Of a DNA stretch of 64,000 nucleotides, positions 15,618 to 59,750 are shown piece after piece (position 1 is the stretch's first letter; every line of letters starts with the position of its first letter). Source of the DNA: an uncultured SAR86 cluster bacterium. Lineage in GTDB: Bacteria > Pseudomonadota > Gammaproteobacteria > Magnimaribacterales > D2472. Below the pieces are notes generated by a model, which did no database searches, was not told where the DNA came from, and saw nothing but the letters and a program-made list of their open reading frames with translations. The stretch spans positions 277,938 to 341,937 of the forward strand of contig CAJIYI010000001.1 in NCBI GenBank assembly GCA_905181595.1, given 5' to 3'. A program made the translations under genes and the position numbers.

Positions 15618-15633
15618 ATTTTTCATTAACAGC

Positions 15634-43377: not shown

Positions 43378-43943
43378 TTACTGGCTTTTAAAAATCATCA
43401 TGCATTGCCTGATCATTGCACTTTTAATTTGATCTTTTTTTAAGCCTTGACCTTGCAATCTCATCCAAAAAGCAAAGGACAAAGTCGCATGGGTTAGTTC
43501 TTGTAACTCGCCATCAAAATTTAAAACTTCGGGGAGCACTTCCTCTACTTTTTGCATTATCATCTTTTGGTAATTCATATAATTTTCCTGCAAAAATTTA
43601 TATTTCCACATATTTGAAACAGTCCCGAACATTATTATTTTATGTTTTTCGTAAACTGCACATAGATGATCGACACCAACCAAAAGACGATTCTCAAAAG
43701 AGAATTAGGATCAAATTTAACTTCAAAATCGTAGTCCTTACGCATTTCAGCATCCACTGACTTGAGCAGGTTTTCCATGTCATCGAATAGTCTAAAGACA
43801 GTTCTTATGCCAACTCCAGATTCATTTGCAACCAGTTGAGCTGTGGGAACAAAATTACCCTCTTTGAACAATTTTATACAAGCCTCAACGATGAGTTTTT
43901 GGCTTTTAACGCTTCGTAAAATTCTTCCATCTTGCTTTGTCAT
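43378..43943 (-). CDS. TetR/AcrR-family transcriptional regulator (frame break near 43690)
   Basis: This is a DNA-binding repressor type with the helix-turn-helix TAQLVANESGVGIRTVFRLFDDMENLL (residues about 30-56, read in two parts). The frame set at the start stops at 43635 after FDPNSLLR, and the correct frame continues as LLVGVDHLCAVYEKH one base out of register. One base is missing near 43690, and the corrected length is 188 residues. The ATG at 43943 is preferred over one at 43970 that would lie inside the palindrome. It is divergent from the nitronate monooxygenase gene, over a perfect inverted repeat. Confidence 0.85.
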
Positions 43944-43956
43944 AGAGTATTTCAAT

Positions 43957-43989
43957 ATATCTATTGACATAATTTATGTCAATAGATAT
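43957..43989. promoter_or_regulatory. Perfect 16-bp inverted repeat, likely TetR operator with two embedded promoters
   Basis: ATATCTATTGACATAA (43957-43972), one T, then its exact reverse complement TTATGTCAATAGATAT (43974-43989). Each arm carries a TTGACA -35 box. On the plus strand, TTGACA at 43964-43969 is 17 bp from TATTGT (43987-43992), and on the minus strand, TTGACA (43977-43982) is 17 bp from TATATT (43954-43959). Bound repressor would block both promoters, the usual TetR autoregulation. Confidence 0.85.
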
Positions 43990-43999
43990 TGTTATGATT

Positions 44000-44923
44000 A
44001 TGAATAGAGTTACAAAAATTTTAGGGGTTCAATATCCAATTGTTCAAGCACCCATGGGTTGGATTGCAAGAAGTCAGCTAGCTTCTGCTGTTTCAAATGC
44101 TGGAGGATTTGGCGTAATTGAAACTTCATCTGGCGAGACTGAAAATTGTAAAGCAGAAATTCTTGCAATGGCTAAACTCACAGACAAACCTTTTGGCGTC
44201 AATTTACCCTTAATGTTTCTTAGGGATGAAAGCATGATTGAGTTGGTCTTAGAACAAGGCATTAAATTTGTTACGACATCTGCTGGTGATCCAGGCAAAT
44301 ATATTCATATTTTAAAAGATGCTGGAATTAATGTTTTTCATGCTGTGCCGAGTGTTGCTGGGGCCATTAAAGCTGCTGATGCTGGAGTTGACGGCTTAGT
44401 CATTGAAGGCACAGAAGGTGGAGGCTTTAAAAGCCCCGAGGAAGTTGGATTGATTGTATTAATACAGGCAATTAGAAAGCACACTGATCTTCCAATTATT
44501 GCTGCAGGCGGGATTGTTGATGGTGTTGGAATGGCCGCAGCATTTGCAGCTGGTGCTGAGGGAATTCAGATGGGAACTAGATTTGTTTCCTCGAAAGAAA
44601 GCCCAGTGCATGAGAATTTTAAAAATTCAATTCTTGATGCTAATGAGCAAGGGACTTGGATTCTTAATAAGAAATCTAAACCCTGTATTCGAGCTTTAAA
44701 AACTGAATTCACTCAAAAAATTCATGAAGTTGGCGTCATGGAAATGTCTGAAATGGGTCGAATTCAAGATCTTTATTTTGGTGGAGATATGAACGCAGCT
44801 CCAGCACTAACCGGACAATCAGCAGGGCTGATAGATGAAGTTAAGCCAGTTGCACAAATTATTGAAGAAACAATATCTGAGTTTAATGAAACGTGTCAAA
44901 AAATGTCTGCACAGAAATTCTAG
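44000..44923 (+). CDS. Nitronate monooxygenase family protein (first copy)
   Basis: This is an FMN-dependent TIM-barrel enzyme of the 2-nitropropane dioxygenase/nitronate monooxygenase family that oxidises nitronates, related to enoyl reductases. Motifs are YPIVQAPMGWIARSQLASAVSNAGG, VIEGTEGGGFKSPEEVG and IIAAGGIVDGVGMAAAFAAGAEGIQMGTRF. Its length is 307 residues from ATG 44000, which would lie right at the predicted transcript start. ATG 43976 lies in the palindrome and is less likely. It is the first gene of the rightward cluster. The native substrate is unknown. Confidence 0.88.
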   Translation: MNRVTKILGVQYPIVQAPMGWIARSQLASAVSNAGGFGVIETSSGETENCKAEILAMAKLTDKPFGVNLPLMFLRDESMIELVLEQGIKFVTTSAGDPGKYIHILKDAGINVFHAVPSVAGAIKAADAGVDGLVIEGTEGGGFKSPEEVGLIVLIQAIRKHTDLPIIAAGGIVDGVGMAAAFAAGAEGIQMGTRFVSSKESPVHENFKNSILDANEQGTWILNKKSKPCIRALKTEFTQKIHEVGVMEMSEMGRIQDLYFGGDMNAAPALTGQSAGLIDEVKPVAQIIEETISEFNETCQKMSAQKF

Positions 44924-44925
44924 CA

Positions 44926-45966
44926 ATGAGAAGTCTTAACCCCATCCCCATTGGTGGAGTTCCTGCCTCTCCTTATACAAGAAAAATGATCTCATTAATG
45001 CGGTATCGCAGAATTCCCCATGTGATTGAATGGGGTGATCCTAGAGATCTTATTAGAAAGTTTAGCGTGGAAGAGCCTAAACCAGTATTGCTGCCTGTGA
45101 TGATTTTTGAAGTTGACGGTAAACATAAAGCAATCACGGACTCGACTCCAATTATTCGCCATTTAGAAACTGAATTTACAGCTAGGGGCGTTATTCCATC
45201 AGATCCAAAACTAGCTTTTTTAAATTATGTGCTTGAGGACTTTGGTGATGAGTGGGTAACAAAATACATGTTTCATTATCGCTGGCATTTTAAAGATGAT
45301 ATAGAAAAAGCTGGAACCATATTGCCCTTATTGCATGGCATTACTCTGGATGATGATAGTCATGCAGCTTTTAAACAGCATATCTCAGATTGGCAGACAA
45401 GTCGTTTGTGGGTAGTTGGCTCCAATGAGATAACAGCTCCAATTATTGAAGCTAGTTACAAAAGATTTCTTGGGCAACTCAACCATTGCCTGTCACAGCA
45501 TCCTTTTTTATTTGGCAACCGTCCGTCATCTGCAGACTACGCTCTATTTGGCCAACTATCAGCATTAGTAGGCTTTGATCCAACCTCAAGAGCTTTAGCG
45601 CATGAGATCTCTCCTCGAGTTATTGCTTGGCAGGATCTTATGGAGGATTTAAGTGGTTTAGAGCCCAGCGAAAGTGACTGGGTAAACTTTGAAGGTGCGG
45701 AGCAAAATCTATCGAGTCTGTTCCAAGAAGTTGGCAAAGTATATTTACCCGCCTTATTAGCAAATTCACACGCTGTTGCTCAAGAAGAGAAAACTTGGAC
45801 CGCTGAAATTGATGGAGCTAAGTGGGAGCAAAGAAGTTTCCCTTATCAGGCAAAGTGTTTGAAATGGATCAACGATGAGTTTCAAGCTTTAAATGAAAGC
45901 GATCAAAAGCAAATCAAAGAATTCTTAACTAAAACAGGTTGTGGGGAACTGATTGCAGAGAAATGA
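44926..45966 (+). CDS. Glutathione S-transferase family protein (long form)
   Basis: This is a 346-residue protein with an N-terminal thioredoxin-fold GST domain (IGGVPASPYTRKMISLMRYRRIP, VMIFEVDGKHKAITDSTPIIRHLE) and a C-terminal helical domain (PFLFGNRPSSADYALFGQL). It is longer than standard GSTs (about 210), with roughly 100 extra C-terminal residues of unknown fold. No Cys or Tyr at the classic position is certain. It begins 2 bp after the nitronate monooxygenase and overlaps the dehalogenase by 4 bp, so these three are tightly coupled. Confidence 0.82.
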   Translation: MRSLNPIPIGGVPASPYTRKMISLMRYRRIPHVIEWGDPRDLIRKFSVEEPKPVLLPVMIFEVDGKHKAITDSTPIIRHLETEFTARGVIPSDPKLAFLNYVLEDFGDEWVTKYMFHYRWHFKDDIEKAGTILPLLHGITLDDDSHAAFKQHISDWQTSRLWVVGSNEITAPIIEASYKRFLGQLNHCLSQHPFLFGNRPSSADYALFGQLSALVGFDPTSRALAHEISPRVIAWQDLMEDLSGLEPSESDWVNFEGAEQNLSSLFQEVGKVYLPALLANSHAVAQEEKTWTAEIDGAKWEQRSFPYQAKCLKWINDEFQALNESDQKQIKEFLTKTGCGELIAEK

Positions 45967-47048
45967 AAATTTTAAGAACACCCGATGAAAGGTTTAGTAG
46001 TTTAGAGGAGTATCCATTTGAGCCCCATTACACCAATATTAAAACTCATGATGGCGCAGATTTAAGAATTCATCACATCGATGAAGGACCAAAAGACGGC
46101 CCAATACTTCTAGCTATGCATGGCCAACCGGTTTGGAGTTATCTCTATGCAAGAATGATCCCTTTCCTCGTTAAAGCCGGTATTAGGGTAATAGCACCAG
46201 ATTTACCAGGGTATGGTAAATCGGATAAGCCTGCAGCTCGAGAGGACTACAGCTATCAAAGACAAGTGGATTGGATGGGTGAATGGCTAAAAGAAAATGA
46301 TTTTTCAAATTTAACTTTTTTTGGTCAGGATTGGGGAGGGCTTATAGGGCTGAGAATGGTCGCACAAGATCCTGATAGATTTCTGAAGATATCAATGGGA
46401 AATACTGGGTTGCCATATAACCCAGATGTCCCTCAAGAGGTTATAGACAGAGTCAAAGTTTTTAGAGAAAGTGATTTAAAACTTACCCCAATGAGCATGC
46501 AAAAAGAAGTTAAGCAGATGGATGGAAAAAACCTTTCAAAAGATTCATCTACTCCTTTTCATCCAGCATTAAAATTTATGTATTGGCAAAAATTTTGCTG
46601 GGATACAGAAAATTTACCAATAGGATTCATCAACTCAAGCATGATGGAAAAAAGATCTAAATTATCAATGATGGGACAATATCTTTTAGAAAATTTAGGC
46701 TTAGCAAAGATTTCACCATTTACCTCGGATCTAGTTAAAGCTTATGACGCACCTTTCCCAGATCCATCTTTTAAAATGGGTCCTCGAGCCATGCCCAGCC
46801 ATGTCCCAATTCTTCCAGATGCATCTTTGGATGCACAAAGAGAGGCAAGAGAGTTTTTTAAAACTTCAACTAAACCGTTCTTAGCAGTGTTTGCTGGCGA
46901 TGACCCTGTAACCAATAATATTGAAAAAGATGTTCTTAAAATGGCTCCAAATGCTAAAAGCGCTCCTCACATTGGAGGAGGGCATTTTTATCAATGGACT
47001 CGAGCAGAAGAACTTTCTGATATTCTTATATCTTTTATTAAGGAGTAA
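45963..47048 (+). CDS. Haloalkane dehalogenase (HLD-I like)
   Basis: This is an alpha/beta hydrolase that replaces halide by hydroxyl through an alkyl-enzyme ester. In 361 residues it has nucleophile Asp123 in FFGQDWGG with the halide Trp124, oxyanion HGQPVWSY (residues 53-60), an Asp at 313-314 and His341 in [12 protein letters not shown] of Xanthobacter has Glu at the HGE position, whereas here it is Gln55. The form is longer than DhlA (310), mainly in the cap. The start at 45963 overlaps the GST stop (ATGA). An epoxide hydrolase is the main alternative. Confidence 0.82.
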
Positions 47049-47050
47049 CA

Positions 47051-47734
47051 ATGATTGATTTTTATACTGCACCAACCCCTAATGGCCATAAGGTTTCCTG
47101 CACCCTCGAAGCTATGGGCTTAGCTTATGAAACCCACGTTATTAATTTATCCGAGAATGAGCAAAAGGAGCCTGATTTTCTTGCGATTAGTCCTAACGGA
47201 AGAATACCTGCAATTGTGGACAGGGATGCAAACAACCTAGCTATTTTTGAATCAGGAGCCATCATGATTTATCTTGCAGAAAAGACTGGCAAGCTCATGC
47301 CAATAGACTTAAATCAAAAAGCTAAAGTGTTGGAGTGGATGATGTTTCAGATGGGCGGCATTGGACCAATGATGGGTCAAGCAAATGTTTTTTTTCGGTA
47401 TTTTCCAGAAAAAATTCAACCGGCTATAGATCGGTACCAAAATGAAGGCAGAAGACTGTTTGAAGTTCTTGATACTCATTTAGCTAAACAGGAGTGGCTT
47501 GCAACCGATTATTCAATTGCCGATATTGCAAATTGGTGTTGGGTCAGGACTCACAAATGGTCAGGAATTTCAGTTGAGGGATTGGATCATCTTGATCGAT
47601 GGATCAAAGCAATGTATGAGCAGCCTGGAATGGTTGAAGGCATAGCAGTTCCTATAAAAATTGAAAGCTTGCTAGATGACGATGAGAAAATGAAAGAATT
47701 TACAAAGAATGCCGAAAAAATGGTAAAAAAATAA
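47051..47734 (+). CDS. Glutathione S-transferase (second copy, Nu-like)
   Basis: This is a 227-residue GST-fold protein with an N-terminal [28 protein letters not shown] and [13 protein letters not shown] (the gamma-glutamyl site), then a C-terminal all-helix domain with a [16 protein letters not shown] segment. It resembles YfcG/YghU-type disulfide-bond reductases, often Nu-class. It begins 2 bp after the dehalogenase gene. The substrate is unknown. Confidence 0.87.
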
Positions 47735-47747
47735 ATAGGAGAAAGCG

Positions 47748-48362
47748 ATGCTAAAAGTACATTTTGTTGCAGGAACTAGAGCGGGACGAGTGGTCTGGCT
47801 TCTAGAGGAGTTAGGGCTTGAATATGAAGTAAATATTATGCCATTCACTAAAGAAGGCTTGAAATCTCCAGAGCATAGATCAAGACATGCTCTTGGAAGG
47901 GTTCCTGTTTTGGAAGATGGCGATATTTCAATTTTTGAGTCAGGCGCCATCATTGATTATGTTCTTGAGAGACATAAGAATGGAGGGTTGAAGCCCAATT
48001 CAGATGCCCCTGAATTTCCTTTTTACCTTCAGTGGTATCACTATTGCGAGGGCATGGTTATGCCTCCCATGAATCAAATTGTTGTTCAAACAATTTTATT
48101 GCCTGCTGATCGAAGAGATGAGGCTGTGTTAAATCAAGCTAAGAAATTACTGTCCAAAGCACTTGCCCCAGTGAATGATGCTCTTGCTGGTAAAGATTAT
48201 TTAATTGGAGATTTCTCTGCTGCAGATTTGATGCTTGGACACTCATGCTTTATGGCTAATAGATTGGGCTGCGTCACTGATGACATGCAAAACATTAAAG
48301 ATTATGTCGCTAGAATTGATAGCAGGCCTGCATTCAAAAAAGCTATTACCATGGGAGAGTAA
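47748..48362 (+). CDS. Glutathione S-transferase (third copy)
   Basis: This is a 204-residue GST-fold protein. The N-terminal VHFVAGTRAGRVVWLLEELGL, LGRVPVLEDG and IFESGAIIDYVLE form the glutathione site, and YLIGDFSAADLMLGHSC is the C-terminal N-capping region. It has a good ribosome site (TAGGAGA) and follows the second GST after 13 bp. The three GSTs are clearly different from one another, so this is not a recent tandem duplication. Confidence 0.87.
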   Translation: MLKVHFVAGTRAGRVVWLLEELGLEYEVNIMPFTKEGLKSPEHRSRHALGRVPVLEDGDISIFESGAIIDYVLERHKNGGLKPNSDAPEFPFYLQWYHYCEGMVMPPMNQIVVQTILLPADRRDEAVLNQAKKLLSKALAPVNDALAGKDYLIGDFSAADLMLGHSCFMANRLGCVTDDMQNIKDYVARIDSRPAFKKAITMGE

Positions 48363-48364
48363 GA

Positions 48365-48778
48365 ATGGAAGTCAAAAATAGTGTAATACCTAACAAGGAT
48401 CAAATGGATGAATTTTTAGAGGGAGACATTGAGTCACCTATATCAATGGTGAATCTGCTTAAATTTAAAGAAAAGGCTGAGTATGAAGACGGCAGAGACA
48501 CTAATTTATCAGGGAAAGAGGCTTACATGATTTATGGAATAGAAGTGCAAGAGCATCTTAAAAAAGTTGGTGGTGAGATGGTCTTTGGCGGCGAAATCAG
48601 TCGATTGATGTTGGGCGAGGTAGAAGACCTTTGGGACAACGTGGCAGTCGCAAGATATCCCAGTAGAACAGCCATGCTAGAGATGATGATGGATCCAGAT
48701 TATCAAGAAAGTGAGAAACATCGATCTGCTGGACTGCTTGGGCAACTAAATATTGAAACAAAAGAAGGAGCTATGTAG
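48365..48778 (+). CDS. DUF1330-type protein
   Basis: This is a 137-residue, probably alpha+beta ferredoxin-like (dimeric alpha/beta barrel) protein. The pattern PISMVNLLKFKEKA and VAVARYPSRTAMLEMMMDPDYQ plus a GLLGQLNI ending matches DUF1330 proteins, whose function is unknown. It starts 2 bp after the third GST and its TAG stop shares one base with the next GTG. It could bind a small hydrophobic substrate or cofactor, but nothing here proves it. Confidence 0.72.
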   Translation: MEVKNSVIPNKDQMDEFLEGDIESPISMVNLLKFKEKAEYEDGRDTNLSGKEAYMIYGIEVQEHLKKVGGEMVFGGEISRLMLGEVEDLWDNVAVARYPSRTAMLEMMMDPDYQESEKHRSAGLLGQLNIETKEGAM

Positions 48779-49245
48779 TGCTCAATAAAATTTTCCCTCC
48801 CATGGCTGACAATAACTTTAGCGGCCATGTAATAGCCTTCTGGGGGTTTATTCTTTTTACAGGAATTATGACTTGGCGATCAATCGTTCATATGCTGTTT
48901 GAGAAATATGGATTTCATGAAATAGGAAATTTTATACCCATTGAAGGTGACCCTGATCCTATGCTGCTGATCTATAGATTTTTTTCTCTTTGGGGTTTTG
49001 CGCAGTTAATATTTTGTTTAGTTTGCTGGGTTGTAATCTTTCGGTACAGAGCACTCATTCCATTAATGTATTTACTGTGGTTATTTGAGTGGAGCTTTAG
49101 AACATTTGGATATCCTTTAATAAGGGAAGACATAACTATTCAAGGAATTTATACCCTTAGTGCCACTCCTGGTGCGGTTGGCGCTCCTTATGTCACCTTT
49201 TTTTTAATTATACTTTTCAGTCTTTCGCTAAGACAAAAAAAATAA
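48778..49245 (+). CDS. Small membrane protein of unknown function
   Basis: I do not recognise this 155-residue protein. It has about four hydrophobic segments (near residues 15-37, 65-90, 92-110 and 130-150), with SLWGFAQLIFCLVCWVVIFR as the best defined. The motif LWLFEWSFRTFGYPLIRED links helices. GTG at 48778 is the start, overlapping the DUF1330 stop. It sits inside the detoxification-type cluster and is probably co-transcribed. Confidence 0.7.
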   Translation: MLNKIFPPMADNNFSGHVIAFWGFILFTGIMTWRSIVHMLFEKYGFHEIGNFIPIEGDPDPMLLIYRFFSLWGFAQLIFCLVCWVVIFRYRALIPLMYLLWLFEWSFRTFGYPLIREDITIQGIYTLSATPGAVGAPYVTFFLIILFSLSLRQKK

Positions 49246-49260
49246 CATTAGGACAATACC

Positions 49261-50364
49261 ATGAACCAATTCCAAACTTTAAAATCCGATTTAACTCAAT
49301 CAAGAATTATAGATATTGATTCCCCTGCCATCGATAATGGTGAAATTGCTGTCAGGATTGAAAGTTATGCTTTTACAGCTAATAACGTTACTTATGGCGT
49401 AGCGGGAGACACTATTGGATATTGGAAATTTTTCCCAGCAGGACTTGATGAAAATAATGAATGGGGGTGTATACCTATGTGGGGATTTGCAGAAATTACT
49501 CACTCAAAAATCAAAGGTTTGAATCTTGGAGAACGAATCTTTGGCTATTTTCCAGCTGCAGACTCATTAATTTTAAGCCCAATTAAAATCTCTGATCAAA
49601 GTTTTAGTGATGGCAAAGAACATCGTAAAGAACTCCCGCCTGTTTACAATAATTATGTCAGACTTGCCGGAGATCAAAACTATGATTCAGCGATGGATGA
49701 AGTCAGAGCACTTTTATTTCCACTTCATATTACGGCCTTTTGTTTGTGCGACTCTCTAGCAGAAGATTCATATCTTGGAGCATCTCAGATAATTATTGTC
49801 AGTGCCTCAAGCAAAACAGCAATTGGTCTGGGTCAAGGTTTAGCTGATACTGATAACCCACCAAAAATTGTCGGATTAACATCTGCCGGCAATGCTAAAT
49901 TTGTAGAAAGTTTGGGCTGTTACGATGAGGTGATTTCTTACGATGAGCTTAGTAATGTAGATTATTCAGCAGCTTCTGTGATGGTTGACATGGCTGGCAA
50001 CAGAGAAATACTAGGAACCCTTCACGGAGAGCTTGGAGATAACATGCTTAAGTGCCTCACTGTCGGCATGACACACTGGGATAATGAGACCACTGCAGAG
50101 GATGCTTTAGGTCAGGCAATGCTAAGAGATAGAACCGAATTCTTTTTTGCTCCAGCTCACATTCAAAAGAGAATTGGAGACTGGGGGCATGATGGTTATG
50201 CTGAAAAAACAAATTCCTTCATGACTGCCAGAGCACTACAAAGCAAAGATTGGATGCAGGTCAAAGAGATTTCTGGGTTAGAGAATTTTACTAGCACTTA
50301 TGAAGATGTGGTTGCAGGAAAGATCAATCCAAATGAAGGCATTATTGTCAATCTTAAAAAATAA
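49261..50364 (+). CDS. DUF2855 family protein (MDR-like fold)
   Basis: This is a 367-residue protein matching DUF2855, distantly related to medium-chain dehydrogenases. The N-terminal half (IESYAFTANNVTYGVAG, IPMWGFAEI, IKGLNLGERIFGYFP) looks like the GroES-like part, and IIIVSASSKTAIGLGQGLAD the nucleotide-binding part. No zinc ligands of alcohol dehydrogenases are seen. The function is unknown, and redox activity on a carbonyl or enoyl substrate is an inference. A 15-bp gap separates it from the membrane protein gene upstream. Confidence 0.75.
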   Translation: MNQFQTLKSDLTQSRIIDIDSPAIDNGEIAVRIESYAFTANNVTYGVAGDTIGYWKFFPAGLDENNEWGCIPMWGFAEITHSKIKGLNLGERIFGYFPAADSLILSPIKISDQSFSDGKEHRKELPPVYNNYVRLAGDQNYDSAMDEVRALLFPLHITAFCLCDSLAEDSYLGASQIIIVSASSKTAIGLGQGLADTDNPPKIVGLTSAGNAKFVESLGCYDEVISYDELSNVDYSAASVMVDMAGNREILGTLHGELGDNMLKCLTVGMTHWDNETTAEDALGQAMLRDRTEFFFAPAHIQKRIGDWGHDGYAEKTNSFMTARALQSKDWMQVKEISGLENFTSTYEDVVAGKINPNEGIIVNLKK

Positions 50365-50380
50365 TTAAAAGGAGAGAAGA

Positions 50381-50758
50381 ATGAAAAATGTATTAAGAGT
50401 TGTCGCAGGCCTTTTTGGGGTCTTATTTTTAATAAACGGACTGCAGTGGATTATTGCTCCTGCAAGTATTGCAGCGCAATTAGGTATGCCCTTATTAGAA
50501 GGAGTTGGGCTGAGTACCCAAATTGGTGATATGGGAAGTTTCTTTATAACTGTAGGTGCTATGACACTAATTGGAGCCCTCACGCAAACTCGTCATTGGT
50601 TTTACGCGCCTTCAATGTTGTTGCTGGTGGCAGCTTTATATAGAACTCTTTCAGTTGCCTTGTACGGCGCACCATTTGTAATGTCAGCAATTGTCGTTGA
50701 GGTAGTTGTAGGTTTATTTTTAATTTTTGCTAGCTCAAGAATTTCAACCAAGGATTAA
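50381..50758 (+). CDS. Small membrane protein, DUF4345-like
   Basis: This is a 125-residue, four-helix membrane protein. GLFGVLFLINGLQWIIAP at the start and TVGAMTLIGALTQTRHWFY in the middle are typical of the DUF4345 group. The function is unknown. A ribosome site (AAGGAGAGAAG) precedes it, and it is between DUF2855 and the metallo-beta-lactamase-fold gene. Confidence 0.6.
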   Translation: MKNVLRVVAGLFGVLFLINGLQWIIAPASIAAQLGMPLLEGVGLSTQIGDMGSFFITVGAMTLIGALTQTRHWFYAPSMLLLVAALYRTLSVALYGAPFVMSAIVVEVVVGLFLIFASSRISTKD

Positions 50759-50762
50759 TATT

Positions 50763-51815
50763 ATGAAACTTCTTAAATATATATCAATTGCTGCTGCCAT
50801 AGGCTTTATTTTGGTCTCTATTTTAACAAGAGTTCCCGCTGTTCAAGATCGTATGATGTTTGGCTTTATTCAAAGCTTAGGTAGTTCAACTGCTGATCTA
50901 AACGACGATTCATTATCTGCTGTTGTGTGTGGTTCTCGATCTCCAATCCCATCTCCTGGAAGAGCGCAAACATGCATCTTAGTTAATGCAGGTGGGAATT
51001 ATTATGTTGTTGATATTGGAGACGGCAGCGCAGCAAATCTCAATAATTGGAGGATAGATGCTAATAAGATTCGCGCTACTTTATTAACTCACCTTCACTC
51101 AGACCACATCTCAGATCTTGCAGATCTGCATCTAATGACATGGATTAATTCCGCTCATAAAAAACCTCTAGATGTTTTTGGTCCGGAGGGAGTTCAATTA
51201 GTCACTCAAGGTTTTGAGGATGCCTATCAGCTTGATTACCAATATCGACATGATCATCATGGTGATGAGGTTGCTCCTATAGATTTCGCTGGCTTTAACC
51301 CTCACCCAATTGATTTATCTAATCCTGTGATCATTAATGAGAATGGTTTGACGGTTACAGCTTTTAAGGTTCCTCATGATCCAGTTGAACCAGCTTTAGG
51401 TTATAGATTCGATTATAAGGGACGTTCAATGGTTATAAGCGGAGATACAAGATATAGCAAGAATTTAATAACATTTTCTAAAGATGCAGATGTGCTTTTT
51501 CATGAGGCTCAAGCAAATCATCAATTAGATATTATGAAAGAGGCTTTAGCAGGCAATAAAGGGCTGGTGAAAGTGTTAGATGATATCGTGACTTACCATA
51601 CAACTCCAATTGAAGCAGCTCAAGCAGCTAATTTGGCCAATGTTGATCACTTAATTTTTTATCATTTAACTCCAGCGCCTAGAAATAATTTAATGGAGAG
51701 AATGTTTTTTCGAGGAGTAAATGACATCAGGAAAGATTGGAGTGCAGCCAAAGATGGCACTATGGTTATTTTGCCATTAGACTCTGATGACATAATAATT
51801 ACCGAGATAGATTAA
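50763..51815 (+). CDS. Metallo-beta-lactamase-fold hydrolase with N-terminal membrane anchor
   Basis: This is a 350-residue protein with a hydrophobic N terminus (residues about 6-24), then the metal-site LLTHLHSDHISDLAD (HxHxDH), VTAFKVPHDPVEPALGYRF, SGDTRYSKN, and FHEAQA. This resembles periplasmic MBL-fold hydrolases related to arylsulfatase AtsA or RNase Z-type proteins. The substrate is unknown. The ATG at 50763 follows the DUF4345 gene by 4 bp, and its stop overlaps the SDR start (TAATG). Confidence 0.88.
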   Translation: MKLLKYISIAAAIGFILVSILTRVPAVQDRMMFGFIQSLGSSTADLNDDSLSAVVCGSRSPIPSPGRAQTCILVNAGGNYYVVDIGDGSAANLNNWRIDANKIRATLLTHLHSDHISDLADLHLMTWINSAHKKPLDVFGPEGVQLVTQGFEDAYQLDYQYRHDHHGDEVAPIDFAGFNPHPIDLSNPVIINENGLTVTAFKVPHDPVEPALGYRFDYKGRSMVISGDTRYSKNLITFSKDADVLFHEAQANHQLDIMKEALAGNKGLVKVLDDIVTYHTTPIEAAQAANLANVDHLIFYHLTPAPRNNLMERMFFRGVNDIRKDWSAAKDGTMVILPLDSDDIIITEID

Positions 51816-52603
51816 TGGATGTCAAAAACAAACGAGTTGTTGTCACTGGTGCAGCTAGTGGTATTGGTAAAGCTCTATGTGAAGCTTTTCACCAAGCCGA
51901 AGCCAAAACAGTTATTGCTGTAGACATGAATTTAGAGGGTGCTCAAGATACAGCTGATTCAGTCAATGGCATTGCTGTTCAAGCGAACGTTGGCAATGAA
52001 GAAGAAATTATTAATGTCATTCAAAAGGCAGATGAGCATGCTGGTGGCACAGATATTTTCTGTTCCAATGCTGGGATTGGAGGTGTACCAGGATTTTTTG
52101 AAGTAGGGGCATCAGATTGGCAGAATATTTGGGATGTAAATGTTCAATCTCATATCTTCGCAGCCAAACATGTACTTCCTCAAATGATTGAGCGAGGGGA
52201 AGGCTATTTGGTGAACACATCTTCCGCCGCAGGTTTACTCACACAGCTTGGAGCTGCAGGTTACTCAGTGACCAAGGCAGCAGCAGTCAGCTTTGCTGAA
52301 TGGATTAAGATTACCTACGGAGAAAAAGGAATCGGTGTCTCATGTTTATGTCCTCAGGCTGTGAGAACCGCCATGACAGCTCAGGGTCCAGGCGTAGCTG
52401 GCGTTGATGGAATGATGGAGCCAGATGTAGTTGCGCAAGAGGTTCTAAAATGCATTGCGGAAGAGACATTCTTAATTCTTCCCCACACTGAAGTTGCTGA
52501 ATATGTTTCGAGAAAAGGCAATGACAGAGATAGATGGATTTCAGGCATGCAAAGACTTCAGAAACAATACGAAGATTTTTTAACCCCAGTGGACATGAAA
52601 TAA
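51815..52603 (+). CDS. Short-chain dehydrogenase/reductase
   Basis: This is a classical SDR of 262 residues with the NAD(P) motif VTGAASGIGKALCEAF (residues 10-25), NAGIGG, and the catalytic Ser-Tyr-Lys in NTSSAAGLLTQ and GYSVTKAA. VAVDMNLEG-like acidic residues after the second strand (AVDMNLEGAQD) suggest NAD(H) preference. It oxidises or reduces an alcohol or ketone within the cluster. The neighbours do not give the substrate. Confidence 0.93.
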   Translation: MDVKNKRVVVTGAASGIGKALCEAFHQAEAKTVIAVDMNLEGAQDTADSVNGIAVQANVGNEEEIINVIQKADEHAGGTDIFCSNAGIGGVPGFFEVGASDWQNIWDVNVQSHIFAAKHVLPQMIERGEGYLVNTSSAAGLLTQLGAAGYSVTKAAAVSFAEWIKITYGEKGIGVSCLCPQAVRTAMTAQGPGVAGVDGMMEPDVVAQEVLKCIAEETFLILPHTEVAEYVSRKGNDRDRWISGMQRLQKQYEDFLTPVDMK

Positions 52604-52615
52604 GTAGGAGAGAAC

Positions 52616-53584
52616 ATGAAAACAAAAATTACAGAATTATTTGGTATAGAGCATCCAATCATTCAAGGTGGAATGCACCATGTTGGCTTCGCTGAATTAG
52701 CTGCAGCAGTATCTAACGCAGGTGGGCTTGGAACTATTACGGGTTTAACTCAGGGTACTCCAGAAAAATTAGCTAATGAGATTGCACGTTGCCAAGAGAT
52801 GACAGATAAGCCTTTTGCTGTGAACTTAACTTTCTTGCCCTCACTGACTCCTCCTGATTATCCAGGCTTAGTGCAGGTTATTATTGATGCAGGAGTTCCA
52901 ATTGTTGAAACAGCCGGCAGAAATCCAGCCGAGTATTTACCAGCTCTCAAAGAGGCTGGAATTAAAGTGATCCATAAATGCACTTCAGTTAGACACTCTC
53001 TTAAAGCTCAATCTATTGGATGTGATGCGGTATCTGTCGATGGTTTTGAATGTGGTGGGCATCCAGGTGAGGATGATATACCTAATTTTATTCTTTTACC
53101 TCGTGCTGCAGATGAGCTTGAAATTCCTTTTGTTGCCTCTGGTGGCATGGCAGATGCAAGAAGTTTAGTTGCAGCAATGGCCCTTGGAGCGGAAGGTATA
53201 AACATGGGCACTAGATTTATTGCGACGCAAGATGCCCCAGTACATCAGAATGTAAAAGATGCAATTGTGAATGCTAGCGAATTAGATACTCGCCTAATTA
53301 TGCGTTCTTTAACTAACACAGAGAGAGTATTAAACAACGATGCTGTTGAACGTCTCATGGAAAAAGAAAAAGCTCTTGGCGACAAGTTAAGATTTGAAGA
53401 TATTGTTGATGAAGTGGCTGGGGTTTACCCAAAAATTATGCATGAGGGCACGATGGAAGTAGGGGCTTGGTCATGCGGCATGGTTGCAGGATTAGTTAGC
53501 GATATACCTACCGTTAAAGACTTAATTGACTCCATTATGACTGAGGCTGACAGCATTATTAACCAAAGGCTAAGTAACTTTTGA
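52616..53584 (+). CDS. Nitronate monooxygenase family protein (second copy)
   Basis: This is a 322-residue FMN TIM-barrel enzyme with HPIIQGGMHHVGFAELAAAV, LGTITGLTQGTPEKL, GFECGGHPGEDDIPN and ASGGMADARSLVAAMALGAEGINMGTRF. It is clearly related to, but quite different from, the copy at 44.0 kb, so the two were not recently duplicated. A GTAGGAGAG ribosome site precedes it. Such enzymes oxidise alkyl nitronates such as propionate-3-nitronate, but other oxidations are possible. Confidence 0.88.
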   Translation: MKTKITELFGIEHPIIQGGMHHVGFAELAAAVSNAGGLGTITGLTQGTPEKLANEIARCQEMTDKPFAVNLTFLPSLTPPDYPGLVQVIIDAGVPIVETAGRNPAEYLPALKEAGIKVIHKCTSVRHSLKAQSIGCDAVSVDGFECGGHPGEDDIPNFILLPRAADELEIPFVASGGMADARSLVAAMALGAEGINMGTRFIATQDAPVHQNVKDAIVNASELDTRLIMRSLTNTERVLNNDAVERLMEKEKALGDKLRFEDIVDEVAGVYPKIMHEGTMEVGAWSCGMVAGLVSDIPTVKDLIDSIMTEADSIINQRLSNF

Positions 53585-53648
53585 TTCTCTTCTCTCAGCA
53601 ACCTAAGGATCTATTCCATCAAGCTAGATTAGCCAAAGATAGATAAAT

Positions 53649-54995
53649 ATGTTGAAAGCTTTTAGAAATTTTATGAGTAGGCGAACGATGAGCGCCAAAA
53701 TTAGAAATCAGATTATGAATACTTTTTCTAATTATAAAATTTTAAAAGATGTCCGTAAAAAAGCTGAAGCTGCAAGACAAGATGAGAATAGACCTCATGA
53801 GATATTATATTTTCACAAGGTTGATGATCCATACTCTCATCTCACAATACACTCTATTGAAAAATTAAAATCTTCCTTTGATATTATTCTTAAACCAATT
53901 TTGGTTGGAGAAGAAAATCTTGAAGCTGTCCATGAACCTGGCTTATACAACACTTATTGTTTGCAAGATGTGAAGCGAATAGCGCCTTTTTACAACATTG
54001 ATTTTAAGGCTGATAAATCTCCTGCAAAAGATATGATAGAAATAGCTAACTCAATTTTAACTTCAGTAAATGCTGAAGATTTTGGTGAGGTAGCTATTCA
54101 AGTAAGTTGCGCTTTATGGAGTGGAGATGCTGCTGCGCTCGATGAATTATCCTCTACTTATTATGCAACTAAGGCTGAGGTAAAAGAGAATTTAAAGCAG
54201 GGCAATAAAACTAGAAATGCTAAAGGCTATTATTTTGGATCTGCATTTTATTACGAGAAAGAATTGTACTGGGGCGTGGATCGCTTGCCTTATTTAGAGA
54301 AAAGACTGGTTGAGTTAGGAGTAAAACATCCTCAAGCCAGTAATTATGTATGCGCGCCAGAATTAAAAGCTCCAAGACAACTAAAGTTAGATAGAAAAGT
54401 AAATTTGTATTACTACCCATCTTTAAATAGCCCATATACTTTTGTTAGCACTAAGAGAGTTCGACAAATCAGAGAAGATTACCCTGTAAATCTAATTACC
54501 AAGCCTGTTTTGCCAATGCTGATGCGTATGATGACTATCCCAAACTATAAAGCTAAATATATTATCTCTGATGCTGCTAGAGAGGGACGTAAGCATGGCC
54601 ATGAAATGAAATCTGTCTATTCCCCCATTGGAAAACCGGCTCGGAAGTCTTACTCACTCTTTCCAGTCATTGATGATGCGGGTAAGGGGTTTGAGTATAT
54701 CGAAGGCTTGTTAAAAGCCTCTTTTCAAGAGGGTATCAATATTGGCGATGAAGTCTTTCTAGAAAACTTGGTTACTGATCTTGAGCTAGATTGGTCAATC
54801 ATCAAAAAAGATTTAAATACAAGACGATGGAAAAAAATTCTCAATGATAATGTTGAAGACATGTATGCAGGAAATTGTTGGGGAGTTCCAAGTTTTAAGA
54901 TTACTGACCAAGATGGAGGTAATCCATTTTATGTCTGGGGGCAGGATAGAATGTGGCTTTTGAAAGAAGAGATATTTAAACGTTTAGAGAGTTAA
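53649..54995 (+). CDS. Tandem DsbA / 2-hydroxychromene-2-carboxylate isomerase-like protein
   Basis: This is a 448-residue protein that looks like two thioredoxin-fold DsbA/HCCA-isomerase (kappa-GST-like) domains in one chain: domain 1 (about 45-220) begins EILYFHKVDDPYSHLTIHSIEKL and domain 2 (about 245-448) begins VNLYYYPSLNSPYTFVSTKRV and ends with GNCWGVPSFKITDQDG, YVWGQDRMWLLKEEI, the usual C-terminal HCCA signature. Neither domain has a CxxC. Single-domain HCCA isomerases act on naphthalene and other aromatic catabolic intermediates. A doubled form is unusual. The upstream gap is 64 bp. Confidence 0.78.
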   Translation: MLKAFRNFMSRRTMSAKIRNQIMNTFSNYKILKDVRKKAEAARQDENRPHEILYFHKVDDPYSHLTIHSIEKLKSSFDIILKPILVGEENLEAVHEPGLYNTYCLQDVKRIAPFYNIDFKADKSPAKDMIEIANSILTSVNAEDFGEVAIQVSCALWSGDAAALDELSSTYYATKAEVKENLKQGNKTRNAKGYYFGSAFYYEKELYWGVDRLPYLEKRLVELGVKHPQASNYVCAPELKAPRQLKLDRKVNLYYYPSLNSPYTFVSTKRVRQIREDYPVNLITKPVLPMLMRMMTIPNYKAKYIISDAAREGRKHGHEMKSVYSPIGKPARKSYSLFPVIDDAGKGFEYIEGLLKASFQEGINIGDEVFLENLVTDLELDWSIIKKDLNTRRWKKILNDNVEDMYAGNCWGVPSFKITDQDGGNPFYVWGQDRMWLLKEEIFKRLES

Positions 54996-54997
54996 TT

Positions 54998-56978
54998 ATG
55001 AAAACTAAAAATAATCTGTTGTTACTGATTGCGTTACTTATTCGCATCATGCTCAGATGCAAATAACTCAAAAAATTTTGAAGTATCTTTGCATGACAAG
55101 CCATTATTAGAAGTCCCTGTTCAACCTAGACCATTGCCTAACCCAGATAAAAATGCATATTTTGGTGATTTGCATGTCCATACAGAAAATTCATTTGATG
55201 CTTATACTTTTGGCACAATCAGCACACCTGCAGATGCATATAAGTATGCTCAAGGTTATCCAATACAACATCCAAGCGGGTACCTTATTCAACTAAGCAG
55301 ACCTTTAGATTTTTATGCTGTAACTGATCACGGCATATTTATGGGATTGATGAAGGAGGCAGCTGATACCACTTCTGAGTTTTCAAAATATGAATTTACC
55401 AAACCTCTTCATAATCTAAATGAGTCAGCGGGCACAGGATTTCTCTCTCTCATCAAAAGAGCATGGTCTGTTTAGACCTTTTGGTGAAAAAGTTAGAGGA
55501 GGGCTTGCTGATGGAAGCATTGATTTATCTTTGATATTAGAAGTTGGCAGAACGGTCTGGCAGAACACTATTAAGGCAACTGATGATGCATATGTGCCAG
55601 GTACTTTTACTACTTTTGCTGCATATGAATATACCCCAGCTTAGATCTTTACAATAATTATTTGCATCGAAACGTCATATTTAAGAGATACTAAAAACCT
55701 GCCCGCGCAACTTTTCACAAGAAATGACAGCCAAGATCCTGAAGAATTATGGGATTGGATGAATCGATTGAGATCAAATGGAGTCGAGAGTTTAGCTATT
55801 CCTCATAATACTAACATTTCTGGTGGAGCTTCATTTTCCCTCAATGATTATAACGGTGGGCCGATTGATGAAGAGTATGCTAACAATCGCTCTCTTAATG
55901 AGCCATTAGTTGAAATTACTCAGGTAAAAGGCACTTCAGAAACTCATCCATTGCTTTCTAAAAATGATGAATGGGCAGCTTTTGAAGCTAAAACTGGAGT
56001 GGAGGCAGAAAAACTTGTTAGTAATTTAAGGGGAGGTTATGTCAGAGATGCATATCTTAGAGGATTGACTCTTGCTGAAAAAGGTCTAACCAATCCATAT
56101 AAATTTGGCTTAATAGGATCAAGCGACTCTCATGTTGGCGGACCTTCAGATAGCTGAAGAACTGTCTTTTCTCAAAAGTTGGTCTTTTAGATGGCACAGC
56201 TGAGCTAAGAGGCTCTATCCCATTTAATAGATTTTATGGAACTTTCTTAAAAGTTTTGAGACCAAATTTGTTCAAGGAAGTAGACGGAAAAAATTATTTT
56301 TCTGCTAGCGACCGACTCGTTCAATTTGCTGCATCTGGTCTTGCTGGAGTTTGGGCAGAAGAAAATACCCGCGAAGCTATTTATGATGCCTTTCGACGCA
56401 AGGAAACATTTGCAACCAGTGGCCCTAGAATGAAAGTGAGATTTTTTGCTGGCTATGATCTAGAGAATTCAAATCTAGATGATCTTTCTCTTATCCAAGA
56501 TGCTTATGCAAGAAGCATTCCAATGGGAGGGACGCTCAATATTGAAGCAAACAAAAATCCAACTTTTTTAGTATGGGCAATAGCTGATCCTCAAGGCGCA
56601 CCATTGCAAAGAACTCAAATTATCAAAGGATGGTTAGAAGACGGAGAGCACAAAGAAAAAGTTTTTGATATCGCATGTTCTGATGGGTTGAGTGTTGATC
56701 CAAAAACAAATCGCTGCCCTGATAATCAAGCTTGGGTAGATTTAAATGACTGCTCGATTAGTGCAGATTCAGGAGCGAGAGAAATGAAAGTTTTATGGCA
56801 AGATCCTGAGTTTAAAGCTGATCAGGATGCATTCTATTATTCTAGGGTGCTTGAGAATCCAGTTTGCAGATGGTCTACTTGGGATGCAGTTAGGGTTGGT
56901 GAGAAACCTAGATCAGATATAGCAACTACAATTCAAGAAAGGGCCTGGTCTTCACCAATTTGGTTAAATAAATTTTAG
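54998..56978 (+). pseudogene. DUF3604 lipoprotein locus, broken by at least five single-base indels
   Basis: The pieces together read as one DUF3604 (PHP-like) protein with a lipobox signal (FASCSDANN), the metal motif YFGDLHVHTENSFDA, VTDHGIFMGL, GLIGSSDSHVGG and RRKETFATSGPRMKVRFFAGYD. Frame changes occur near 55037, 55480, 55643, 55688 and 56155, alternating insertion and deletion, and the ORF pieces remain conserved. With the indels removed it would be about 659 residues. It could be sequence error or a recent pseudogene. Family members are metal-dependent hydrolase-like and poorly characterised. Confidence 0.8.
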
Positions 56979-57001
56979 TAGATACATAAGGAATACATAC
57001 T

Positions 57002-57796
57002 ATGTCCAATAAAACCGCATTAGTTACTGGCGCCTCTGATGGAATCGGCGCTGAATTTATCCAAATTCTTGCAAGCCGAGGGTACGATCTTATTCTTGTT
57101 GCCCGGAGTGAGGACAAACTAAATCAGTTAGCAGTCAAGGTGGGTGGCCAATTTGGAGTTAATTGCACTGTTATTGTGGCTGACCTATCAGAGCCAAATG
57201 CAGCTCAGAACCTATTTCAAAGTATCGAAGCAAAGGGCTTAGATGTAGATTTTTTAATTAATAACGCCGGTCTTTTGCACAACGGATTCTTTACTGAGCT
57301 CAATCTTGCAGAGCAGGAGAGAATGATTGTAGTTAATATCCTTGCTCTCACTGCATTGACACACTTGTATGCGAATAATATGGCATCTAAAGGTGGCGGG
57401 CATATACTTAACGTGGCCTCACTAGCTGGGTGGATGGCCATCCCAAATCAGAATGTGTATGCGGCCACAAAGGCCTATGTATTAGCCTTCACTCAGGCGC
57501 TATCTAATGAAATGGTCGCAGCAGAAAGCGGCGTTAAGGTTACAGCCCTATGTCCTGGTTATACCGCTACAAAAATGATGGACAATCCAGATCAAGGAGC
57601 CACTCTTCGCATTCCATCAAGCATGATGATGTCGGCTAGAGATGTCGCTGAAATTGGTATAAAAGCCTGTTTTGCAGGGAAGGACATTGTAGTTCCCGGT
57701 GTTGCTAATAAACTTACAGCAATAATTACTCACTTCTTTTCAAAGACATTGGTAACAAAGGTTTTTGGTTCTTTCTATCGAAAAAACATGGACTAA
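57002..57796 (+). CDS. Short-chain dehydrogenase/reductase (second copy)
   Basis: This is a classical SDR of 264 residues. The nucleotide motif VTGASDGIGAEF is at residues 9-20, NNAGLLHNG is the active-site strand, and the catalytic Ser-Tyr-Lys are in NVASLAGW and YAATKAYVLAF. VARSEDKLN suggests NADP(H). The C-terminal part has a membrane-associating look (ITHFFSKTLVTKVFGSF), as in lipid-modifying SDRs. It differs clearly from the SDR at 51.8 kb. Confidence 0.92.
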   Translation: MSNKTALVTGASDGIGAEFIQILASRGYDLILVARSEDKLNQLAVKVGGQFGVNCTVIVADLSEPNAAQNLFQSIEAKGLDVDFLINNAGLLHNGFFTELNLAEQERMIVVNILALTALTHLYANNMASKGGGHILNVASLAGWMAIPNQNVYAATKAYVLAFTQALSNEMVAAESGVKVTALCPGYTATKMMDNPDQGATLRIPSSMMMSARDVAEIGIKACFAGKDIVVPGVANKLTAIITHFFSKTLVTKVFGSFYRKNMD

Positions 57797-57827
57797 AGGT
57801 TATAAATTATTATATTAAGGTTTTCTT

Positions 57828-58809
57828 ATGAGTGAACAAATGATTAAAAAGGTACTGATTACTGGCGCCAATGGATTTATTGGCGGCTCATTGATGCGTT
57901 ACTACCAAAACCAGGGTCAAGATGTTGTGGGTGTTGATCTTGTCGGCAACGGCAATGATATTATCGAGGGCGACATAGCTCAACCTGATTCGATCAGTCA
58001 TGTCTTGCAGGAATGTGATGTAATCATTCCACACGGCTGCACTGGTATCTAATGCAATGCAAGATAGCGATATGTGGAGGGTCAATGTTTTGGCTACTCG
58101 AAACTTAATTGAGGCAGCTAAAGAGCATAAAGTAAGACGCTTTGTTCAAATTTCTTCAGTCGTTGCATATGGGAATTCAGCAGAAGGCGAGTTAGATGAA
58201 AGTCAGCCCGTTCATGCAGATGGAGGCAGCTATGTTCTTACAAAACTTGCTTCAGAACATGTTGTATTGGGCGCCCAGGCAAATGATGATATAGAGGTAG
58301 TGATTCTTCGACCTGGTGATGCTTATGGTCCAGGCAGTCGCCCTTGGATTATTGCCCCACTAGAGGCAATTGCTAAAAATCAGTTTATGCTTCCAGCAAA
58401 AGGGGAAGGCTTTTTTAGACCTATTTACATAGATGACTTAGTGCGTGGCATTGTCATGGCAGCAAGTCACCCAGATGCTGCAGGTGAGATATTTAATATA
58501 TCTTGCGAAGGTTATATGGCTACCAAAGACTACTTTGCACCTCATTACCAATGGCTAGGAAAAAAAGGTCCCATGCTGGTGTCTACGAAATTTGCACTTA
58601 GGGTATCTGGGATAGCATCAAAAGTGGCCGATCTTATGGGTAACCTAAATGAAGCCTCGCCATCCACTATTATGCAACTTTCAACCAAGAGTTGGTTTTC
58701 TATCAAAAAAGCTGAACGTATTCTTGGATGGAAGCCAGAAATTTCATTTGAAGATGGCATGAAATCAACACATGAATGGGCCAAAGAGCAGGGATTAATT
58801 AAAAAATGA
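57828..58809 (+). CDS. NAD-dependent epimerase/dehydratase family protein (one-base frame break near 58030)
   Basis: This is an extended SDR with VLITGANGFIGGSLMRYY (residues 9-26), the catalytic Tyr-Lys in GGSYVLTKLASEH, and RPGDAYGPGSRPWI. Such proteins act on nucleotide sugars, sterols (3-beta-HSD type) or other NAD-linked substrates, and the C-terminal region with hydrophobic helix ALRVSGIASKVADLMG hints at the 3-beta-HSD-like group. The frame stops at 58052, and the next frame reads HTAALVSNAMQDSDMW. One extra C in ATTCCACACGG would explain it (326 residues). Confidence 0.85.
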
Positions 58810-59687: not shown

Positions 59688-59727
59688 TTGTATTAGTAAT
59701 AAATTTTGAATTCTAGTCACAATAAAC

Positions 59728-59750
59728 TAATGTCATATTATATGTCAATA
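59728..59750. promoter_or_regulatory. Second, imperfect copy of the tetR operator, over the DJ-1 gene promoter
   Basis: TAATGTCATA (59728-59737), three bases, TATGTCAATA (59741-59750). The same place in the tetR operator reads TATTGACATA, three bases, TATGTCAATA. The right arm is identical and the left arm differs at two bases, with the same spacing. The right arm carries TTGACA (minus, 59743-59748), 18 bp from TATTGT (59719-59724), a promoter for the DJ-1 gene. Confidence 0.6.

Follow-up and report, generated by a model that had tools for sequence, protein, structure and literature searches.

Do the sixteen genes that run in one direction through positions 43976-58809 of this SAR86 sequence work as a unit, and if so, on what kind of compound? 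The sequence (the whole 64,000-nucleotide stretch analysed, hereafter the window) belongs to a genome of 1.41 Mb in two contigs, which is 88% complete. The run includes genes for a haloalkane dehalogenase (HLD), three glutathione S-transferases (GST1-3), and two flavin mononucleotide (FMN) enzymes (NMO1 and NMO2). Our analysis indicates that the locus holds a real, conserved, and probably jointly regulated module, whose enzyme families are known and whose combination was not found described in the literature searched. For convenience, it is referred to as the SAR86 HLD-GST module.

The first-pass annotation had described a tightly packed, one-direction run of sixteen genes. The open reading frame (ORF) list and the Pfam and NCBIfam scans placed all sixteen on the + strand and confirmed every gene family that had been named; only the sixteenth gene, encoding a DUF3604 protein, had been left out of that list. 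Eleven of the 15 intergenic gaps were 17 bp or shorter, in agreement with the earlier description of gaps mostly under 20 bp, and the other four measured 64, 33, 23, and 260 bp. The 260-bp gap arises because the 5' part of the epimerase gene (EPI) lies in another frame. As the genome is streamlined, close packing on a single strand is weak evidence alone. The features are as follows.

43378..43970, - strand: TetR-family regulator, divergent; frame shift near 43701 (a single frame of approximately 189-198 residues in relatives)
43956..43990, no strand: 35-bp palindrome with the core TTGACAT-N5-ATGTCAA at 43964-43982; probable TetR operator
43994..44923, + strand: NMO1, FMN enzyme belonging to the NMO/FabK superfamily (Pfam PF03060; NCBIfam and PDB comparisons); ORF opens at 43976
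44929..45966, + strand: GST1, long (345 residues) glutathione S-transferase-like protein; core, with relatives in Alphaproteobacteria
45966..47048, + strand: HLD, DhlA-like (HLD-I) haloalkane dehalogenase; cap region enlarged and poorly aligned
47051..47734, + strand: GST2, nearest PDB entry 4eci; kin to YfcG/YghU disulfide-bond oxidoreductases and Ure2p
47748..48362, + strand: GST3, with GST domains (Pfam)
48365..48778, + strand: DUF1330 protein; core (Pfam, locus comparison)
48796..49245, + strand: MEM, 149-residue four-helix membrane protein; core; ORF opens at 48778
49261..50364, + strand: DUF2855, predicted MDR-fold enzyme, LTB4-dehydrogenase/prostaglandin-reductase-like (Pfam 326 bits, model)
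50381..50758, + strand: DUF4345-like small membrane protein (Pfam 20.9 bits, under the 26.5 cut-off)
50763..51815, + strand: MBL, metallo-beta-lactamase-fold hydrolase, ribonuclease Z/PNGM-1/arylsulfatase-like; hydrophobic N-terminus by eye
51815..52603, + strand: SDR1; frequent member (Pfam, NCBIfam, locus comparison)
52616..53584, + strand: NMO2, PA1024-like FMN enzyme, probably a NADH:quinone oxidoreductase (PF03060, PDB)
53649..54995, + strand: DSBA/HCCA-isomerase-like protein of 448 residues, with one DSBA match at residues 256-442; accessory
55029..56978, + strand: DUF3604 protein, frame-broken; accessory (Pfam)
57002..57796, + strand: SDR2; linked in one of the 37 SAR86 loci from outside the genus
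57828..58809, + strand: EPI, epimerase with a frame-shifted 5' part; linked in none of the 37 SAR86 loci from outside the genus

Conservation and spread of the gene set

Relatives of DUF2855 were found in 141 stretches across the genomes of 84,980 species, and the best 80 were kept. Linkage was counted in 58 of these 80 loci and in 11 of 14 SAR86 loci from genomes without DUF2855. Eighteen of the 80 (L055-L069, L075, L109, and L112) were left out as belonging to the genus of the window by DUF2855 identity and contig match, as were L080, L113, L130, and L132, and L160, L162, and L163 were left out of the 14. L089, with a DUF2855 of 86% identity, was kept as outside the genus so judged. In named records, the nearest DUF2855 proteins were those of the SAR86 cluster bacteria (Gammaproteobacteria) AG-313-N18 (89% identity) and SAR86E (87%). 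As an internal control, all 47 other genes of the window were searched in the same loci.

The 37 SAR86 loci judged to be outside the genus averaged 7.4 of the 15 cluster genes with the DUF2855 anchor included, whereas the 47 flanking genes gave two matches in total, both to a DJ-1-like gene that is part of some clusters as well. The 11 SAR86 loci from genomes without DUF2855, which were picked by MEM or HLD matches, had 5.5 cluster genes on average and three flank matches.

Inside the genus, gene order was almost constant, which alone would say little. Outside the genus, the order was reshuffled and the set was retained. The order NMO1-GST1-HLD-GST2-GST3-DUF1330-MEM-DUF2855 in the window was replaced by DUF1330-GST1-HLD-NMO1-MEM-DUF2855-sulfatase-NMO2 in copies such as L096-L098 and by HLD-DUF1330-GST1-DUF2855-MEM-NMO1, with a divergent MBL, in L122, L123, and L126-L128. 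Three genomes of 0.9-1.1 Mb from another family (L157-L159) had HLD-DUF1330-MEM-MBL alone. The gene-order comparison proposed in the first-pass annotation thus found a set travelling together and not scattered homologues.

Among 60 SAR86 genomes, MEM was present in 44 and GST1 in 42 (each in 19 of the 23 best genomes), a strong HLD in 39 (partial ones counted), and DUF2855 in 27. Where both members of a pair were found, they shared a contig and were no more than 10 kb apart in 30 of 33 cases for MEM and HLD, 31 of 34 for GST1 and HLD, and 28 of 34 for MEM and GST1. Weak or partial matches were left out of these pair counts (G033 and the second G051 match for MEM, G043 and secondary matches for GST1, and HLD matches under approximately 340 bits). 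HLD, GST1, and MEM cluster even in genomes without DUF2855. The core consists of HLD, GST1, DUF1330, MEM, and MBL, and the frequent partners are NMO1, NMO2, DUF2855, GST2, GST3, and a sulfatase. The membership proposed earlier accordingly held for the core and failed for SDR2 and EPI, which were linked in one and none, respectively, of the 37 loci. These two genes were rejected as core members, as were two genes upstream of the run, one saccharopine-dehydrogenase-like and one for an acyl-CoA synthetase, all being unlinked outside the genus except for one SDR2 and one acyl-CoA synthetase match.

Many genus members carry, between NMO2 and the DSBA gene, an opposite-strand cassette of a HupE/UreJ-like gene, a PPIC rotamase gene, and a second DUF3604 gene (for example, 13987-17831 of L031). 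Some of the cassette-bearing members have an extra GST; the window has no cassette.

The set was also observed beyond SAR86. Seven OCS116/PS1/Rhodobiaceae loci contained a mean of 4.1 of 15 cluster genes and no flank match; in the OCS116/PS1 loci L103-L105, MBL-MEM-DUF1330-HLD-GST1 faces DUF2855, and L106 begins at MEM. MEM is rare outside its order: it was found in 4 of 369 genomes of the class, all four from the order of the window, and in 7 of 398 genomes of the phylum, the window's own included. In the 3.1-Mb genome G716, a single locus (L149) brings together TetR, GST1, FGE, MBL, HLD, MEM, DUF2855, and two sulfatases. We infer that G716 is an alphaproteobacterium from another genome in its class set, G1043: the locus L214 of G1043 and the OCS116 record L104 are identical DNA, and OCS116 belongs to the Alphaproteobacteria. 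A GST1 relative at an E value of 1e-40 was present in 67 of 385 genomes of this class. Loci were fetched for 20 of the 23 genomes with the strongest GST1 (left out were G889, G1002, and G716, the last already covered as L149), and 17 of the 20 had at least one further member family, one of them (L214) duplicating L104. The commonest partners were DUF1330 (7), the sulfatase (7), and DUF2855 (6).

In a midpoint-rooted tree that included distant HLDs, the OCS116/PS1 HLDs nested inside those of SAR86; without the distant HLDs, they were merely one side of a branch. The tree was obtained by a quick search with SH-aLRT only and gave warnings on joined long branches. The tree with distant HLDs points to a transfer of the module between SAR86 and OCS116/PS1.

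Taken together, the run is very likely to be one functional unit, because the set survives reshuffling and recurs in two classes, whereas its flanks turn over. The idea of a shared unit was borne out across SAR86 families and Alphaproteobacteria, and it was extended by a TetR gene with its putative operator and by a sulfatase of relatives, none of which the first-pass annotation had mentioned.

DUF2855 was seen in other company in several records. In Porticoccaceae, SAR92, and Hirschia records (L114, L118, L119, L121, and L131), it directly follows a protein of 466-484 residues that takes the place of the SAR86 partners and that gave weak FAD/NAD-binding matches in the two scanned (L119 and L131). 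In L115-L117, DUF1330-MEM-DUF2855 is followed by a gene for a 469-residue protein, which in L115 (an OM182 record, scanned) is a Rieske ring-hydroxylating oxygenase.

Regulator and putative operator

A near-perfect 35-bp palindrome lies between TetR and the first gene, and two divergent promoter-like sites have their -35-like hexamers in its arms. The motif TGACA-N7-TGTCA occurred at 22 sites in 100 loci (1.7 Mb), compared with 0-5 in ten simulated sets, and four other spacer lengths gave 0-2 sites in the 100 loci. Twenty of the 22 sites were at the head of a cluster, 18 of these beside a TetR gene. They span several SAR86 lineages and the Rhodobiaceae record L107; the remaining two lay within a gene (L114, L119). 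Among 21 loci with a TetR match over 90 bits, the exact motif was present in 17. These results suggest that the module is probably TetR-controlled, with a divergent TetR gene and, between the start sites, a palindrome that serves as a putative operator.

The only perfect motif site in the genome of the window is that of this cluster, and one-mismatch sites exist. With up to two mismatches, 18 sites were found genome-wide versus 7 for a backward-pattern control, so that a wider regulon is only a lead. In the window, up to three mismatches gave 11 sites against 6.5 expected, and promoter and terminator scans overall gave no more sites than shuffles. One one-mismatch copy (G000:C1:63193-63211, L175) is located 38 bp upstream of another gene that looks DUF3604-like by eye, near a flavin-monooxygenase-like gene; this may possibly be a second member of the regulon.

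Enzymes and their probable chemistry

HLD scored 315.6 bits against the NCBIfam haloalkane dehalogenase model NF002043 (cut-off 265). Pfam assigned it to the alpha/beta hydrolases, and its PDB matches, of up to 265 bits, were DhlA (1b6g), 6f9o, 5esr, and 4mj3, a type of dehalogenase that we take to be subfamily HLD-I. An Asp, its adjacent Trp, a cap Trp, a second Asp, and a His were invariant in 60 of 60 orthologues; these are presumably the nucleophile, the two halide-binding Trp residues, the acid, and the catalytic His. HLD differs from DhlA-type HLD-I enzymes in a cap 50-65 residues longer and mostly unaligned, in a Gln at the Glu position of the HG[E/Q]P motif, and in its setting, which is a conserved multi-enzyme cluster and not a 1,2-dichloroethane pathway. 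On these residues and matches, it seems rather probable that HLD cleaves carbon-halogen bonds, and the halogenated substrate suggested by the first-pass annotation remains plausible.

GST1 is not of the IsoI type, as it reached 24 bits against an equivalog cut-off of 300. The GSTs of isoprene degradation (IsoI) and of the beta-aryl-ether-cleaving Lig systems follow the same logic of GST with SDR, namely conjugation, oxidation, and glutathione release, although, unlike the SAR86 module, these systems are not known to include HLD, MBL, DUF2855, or a sulfatase. In the Lin pathway for hexachlorocyclohexane, a single organism likewise carries genes for a haloalkane dehalogenase, an SDR, and a GST, but the dehalogenase is of another subfamily, the genes are scattered, and none of the other families of the module is known from this pathway.

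Both NMO proteins belong to PF03060, a family of FMN enzymes, and nitro compounds had been suggested earlier as one possible target of the gene mix. In the PDB comparison, neither was closest to the true nitronate monooxygenases. NMO2 matched PA1024 best (2gjl and 6e2a, the latter deposited as a nitronate monooxygenase) with 364 bits over almost the full length, and its GGHPGED region keeps the His of PA1024, which is present in 36 of 36 relatives. PA1024 is a NADH:quinone oxidoreductase according to the available text of PMC10033279, and NMO2 is probably one as well, judging from this similarity. NMO1 was nearest to FabK-type flavin reductases (7l00 and 5gvh), with 271 bits against the FabK equivalog, under its cut-off of 453. 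Nitro-compound catabolism was dropped after the PDB and NCBIfam comparison of both proteins.

DUF2855 had no sequence match in the PDB. Its predicted model (mean pLDDT 68) matched 4b7x with a Foldseek E value of 1.4e-12 and many PTGR/LTB4DH chains with a TM score of approximately 0.5-0.6. DUF2855 is thus predicted to be an MDR double-bond reductase, which would carry out NADPH-dependent reduction of enones. MEM matched nothing in Pfam, NCBIfam, or the PDB by sequence, and its model (pLDDT 73), with four helices, had no structural match in the PDB. The metal ligands of MBL were invariant in 44 of 44 relatives.

In many relatives, a formylglycine-type sulfatase gene follows DUF2855; it exceeded 200 bits in 35 of 59 SAR86 DUF2855 loci, and its C-x-P-S-R motif was present in 31 of 31. 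Its closest match was a carrageenan sulfatase, with a steryl sulfatase lower in the list. L149 encodes (14431-16641) a 737-residue sulfatase with a C-terminal DUF4345-like domain, that is, a fusion of genes adjacent in many SAR86 copies; BLAST between the DUF4345-like protein of the window and this fusion was weak (E 0.88), and a profile match gave an E value of 1.6e-8. FGE genes adjoin cluster relatives in L149, L223, and L232. Sulfatases with C-x-P-S-R are common in SAR86, yet an FGE-domain protein (PF03781) was found in just 5 of the 60 SAR86 genomes, most of which are incomplete.

Possible roles of the module

Tentatively, and with a little less than even confidence, we read the module as an inducible catabolic one whose main purpose is the use of a halogenated and/or sulfated, lipid-like compound. 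Genes for acyl-CoA synthetase, acyl-CoA dehydrogenase, thiolase, and enoyl-CoA hydratase occur in or beside the copies, and acyl-CoA genes lie upstream of the run in the window; the lipid-like substrate proposed by the first-pass annotation is plausible on this ground. TonB receptors adjoin L044, L133, and L161. A hydrophobic compound bearing halogen and/or sulfate ester groups would enter the cell and induce the module. MBL, DUF3604, and, where present, the sulfatase would trim it at or outside the membrane, and HLD would replace halogen with hydroxyl in the cytoplasm through its Asp nucleophile. The three GSTs would join the remaining electrophilic groups to glutathione, which GST2, of a disulfide-oxidoreductase-like class, may release again. 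SDR1 would oxidize alcohols, DUF2855 and the FMN enzymes NMO1 and NMO2 would reduce activated double bonds or quinones, and the carbon skeleton would pass through acyl-CoA synthetase to beta-oxidation.

Several observations weigh against this catabolic reading. HLD is absent from clusters that retain other members (L066-L069 and L161), so that dehalogenation is not essential everywhere, and its cap Trp was placed only by a weak 1.6-bit segment aligned to 6f9o and 5esr. The cluster sulfatase is absent from the window's own genome, where the best matches are approximately 35% identical, and FGE is scarce in SAR86 as described above. The 14 loci of other Gammaproteobacteria and Alphaproteobacteria contained a mean of 1.4 of 15 cluster genes (the DUF2855 anchor counted) with no flank match; with few or no partners there, DUF2855 has other uses. 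Among the GST1 loci of Alphaproteobacteria, most have no more than parts of the set, and 3 of the 20 have no other member. The background control for these loci is small and selected: of six loci located by weak MEM matches, the five without the set were used, and the sixth, L149, was set apart because it holds the set. As for the regulation, the exact motif is absent from 4 of the 21 TetR-bearing loci (L093, L094, L097, and L149), and TetR is frame-broken in the window assembly.

SAR86 bacteria have been described, in the passages at hand of PMC11582366, as having lipid, sulfolipid, and steroid catabolism, beta-oxidation, a high copy number of GSTs, HCCA isomerases, and arylsulfatases. That work concerns the same order of bacteria and shares the themes of GST, HCCA isomerase, and arylsulfatase, whereas those passages do not describe the module, its regulator, or its spread. 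They propose the use of nitroaromatics through nitroreductases, which are genes other than those examined here, and the main text of PMC11582366 has no word beginning with halo or nitronate. DUF2855 was not found by name, and no match was found for four of five terms of the gene set together, in the literature searched, which lacks most subscription papers. The same literature contains three papers that name SAR86 along with haloalkane dehalogenase and six that name it along with dehalogenase.

One narrower form of the catabolic reading takes the substrate to be a chlorosulfolipid, a polychlorinated alkyl sulfate of phytoplankton. The formylglycine-type sulfatase would take the sulfate, HLD and the GSTs would take the chlorines, and DUF2855 and the FMN enzymes would reduce unsaturated intermediates before the chain went to beta-oxidation. 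Chlorosulfolipids would offer a natural substrate with chlorine and sulfate on a fatty chain, and we infer the link to the module from this likeness. In the accessible text of PMC13413282 (2026), chlorosulfolipids ranging from C12 to C27 and bearing as many as 11 chlorines are reported from coastal Pacific seawater, where they track algal blooms and correlate with diatoms and dinoflagellates; this text contains no word beginning with degrad. With the cluster sulfatase missing from the genome of the window itself, a chlorosulfolipid pathway is doubtful and, in our view, improbable.

Inducible defence against reactive electrophiles such as algal oxylipins, polyunsaturated aldehydes, quinones, and halocarbons, with no gain of carbon, is a less likely but credible explanation. 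Several GSTs would conjugate glutathione, DUF2855 and the FMN enzymes would reduce enones, and HLD would hydrolyse. Three GSTs, a DUF2855 predicted to resemble prostaglandin reductases, a quinone-oxidoreductase-like NMO2, and a TetR with its own palindrome all fit this explanation, as such a gene set is the usual outfit of detoxification. A second MDR gene (PF16884, which we take to be the family holding prostaglandin reductases) also adjoins the copy in L102. What occurs within or next to the copies, namely sulfatases, FGE, MBL, DUF3604, TonB receptors, and acyl-CoA genes, points instead to catabolism, as does the description of SAR86 as living on lipids via beta-oxidation (PMC11582366, in part).

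Somewhat less probable still is a cluster for the catabolism of steroids, sterol sulfates, or polycyclic aromatics, in which HLD would hydrolyse a non-halogenated substrate. The available passages of PMC4810484 and PMC11582366 report genes for degradation of the steroid side chain and for some ring degradation in SAR86 genomes; steryl sulfatase is among the relatives of the cluster sulfatase, and in the OM182 copies DUF2855 has a Rieske oxygenase as its neighbour. The core itself showed no recognisable steroid-pathway family, and the best sulfatase match was the carrageenan sulfatase. Moreover, a non-halogen role would not require the HLD residues that we take to be halide-binding and catalytic, which are kept in 60 of 60. 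Finally, a chance neighbourhood of unrelated genes on one strand would agree with the short gaps and long one-strand runs usual in streamlined genomes, and SDR2 and EPI look like such neighbours, but it is hardly credible given the persistence of the set across two classes amid changing flanks and the recurring pair of regulator and palindrome.

SAR86 are among the commonest surface-ocean bacteria, and the module is likely to be important to the cells: although their genomes are streamlined, most of those searched have it, its reshuffled genes have largely stayed together, and it seems to have passed between SAR86 and a second marine class. The analysis links a dehalogenase, a GST of unusual length, an orphan membrane protein, and DUF2855 as working partners, with a regulator and a putative operator supplied. 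Which organisms consume halogenated and sulfated marine lipids could be tested directly in an existing isolate, provided that it has the module. If the chlorosulfolipid pathway were true, SAR86 and OCS116/PS1 bacteria would be leading natural consumers of the halogenated lipids of surface seawater.

Three genes of the locus are frame-broken in the window assembly, namely TetR, DUF3604 (three pieces), and EPI, and the first two are each uninterrupted in several relatives; the breaks may reflect assembly errors or decay. A 93-residue piece of a carbohydrate kinase was also observed at 63091-63372, and this piece and the three broken genes may be indel errors of the assembly. Directly after the run, a DJ-1/PfpI-like gene lies on the opposite strand (58830-59720), and its relatives are located inside the clusters of L082, L086, L155, and L156. 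Next to it, at 59730-59748, an operator-like site with two mismatches overlaps a promoter-like site.

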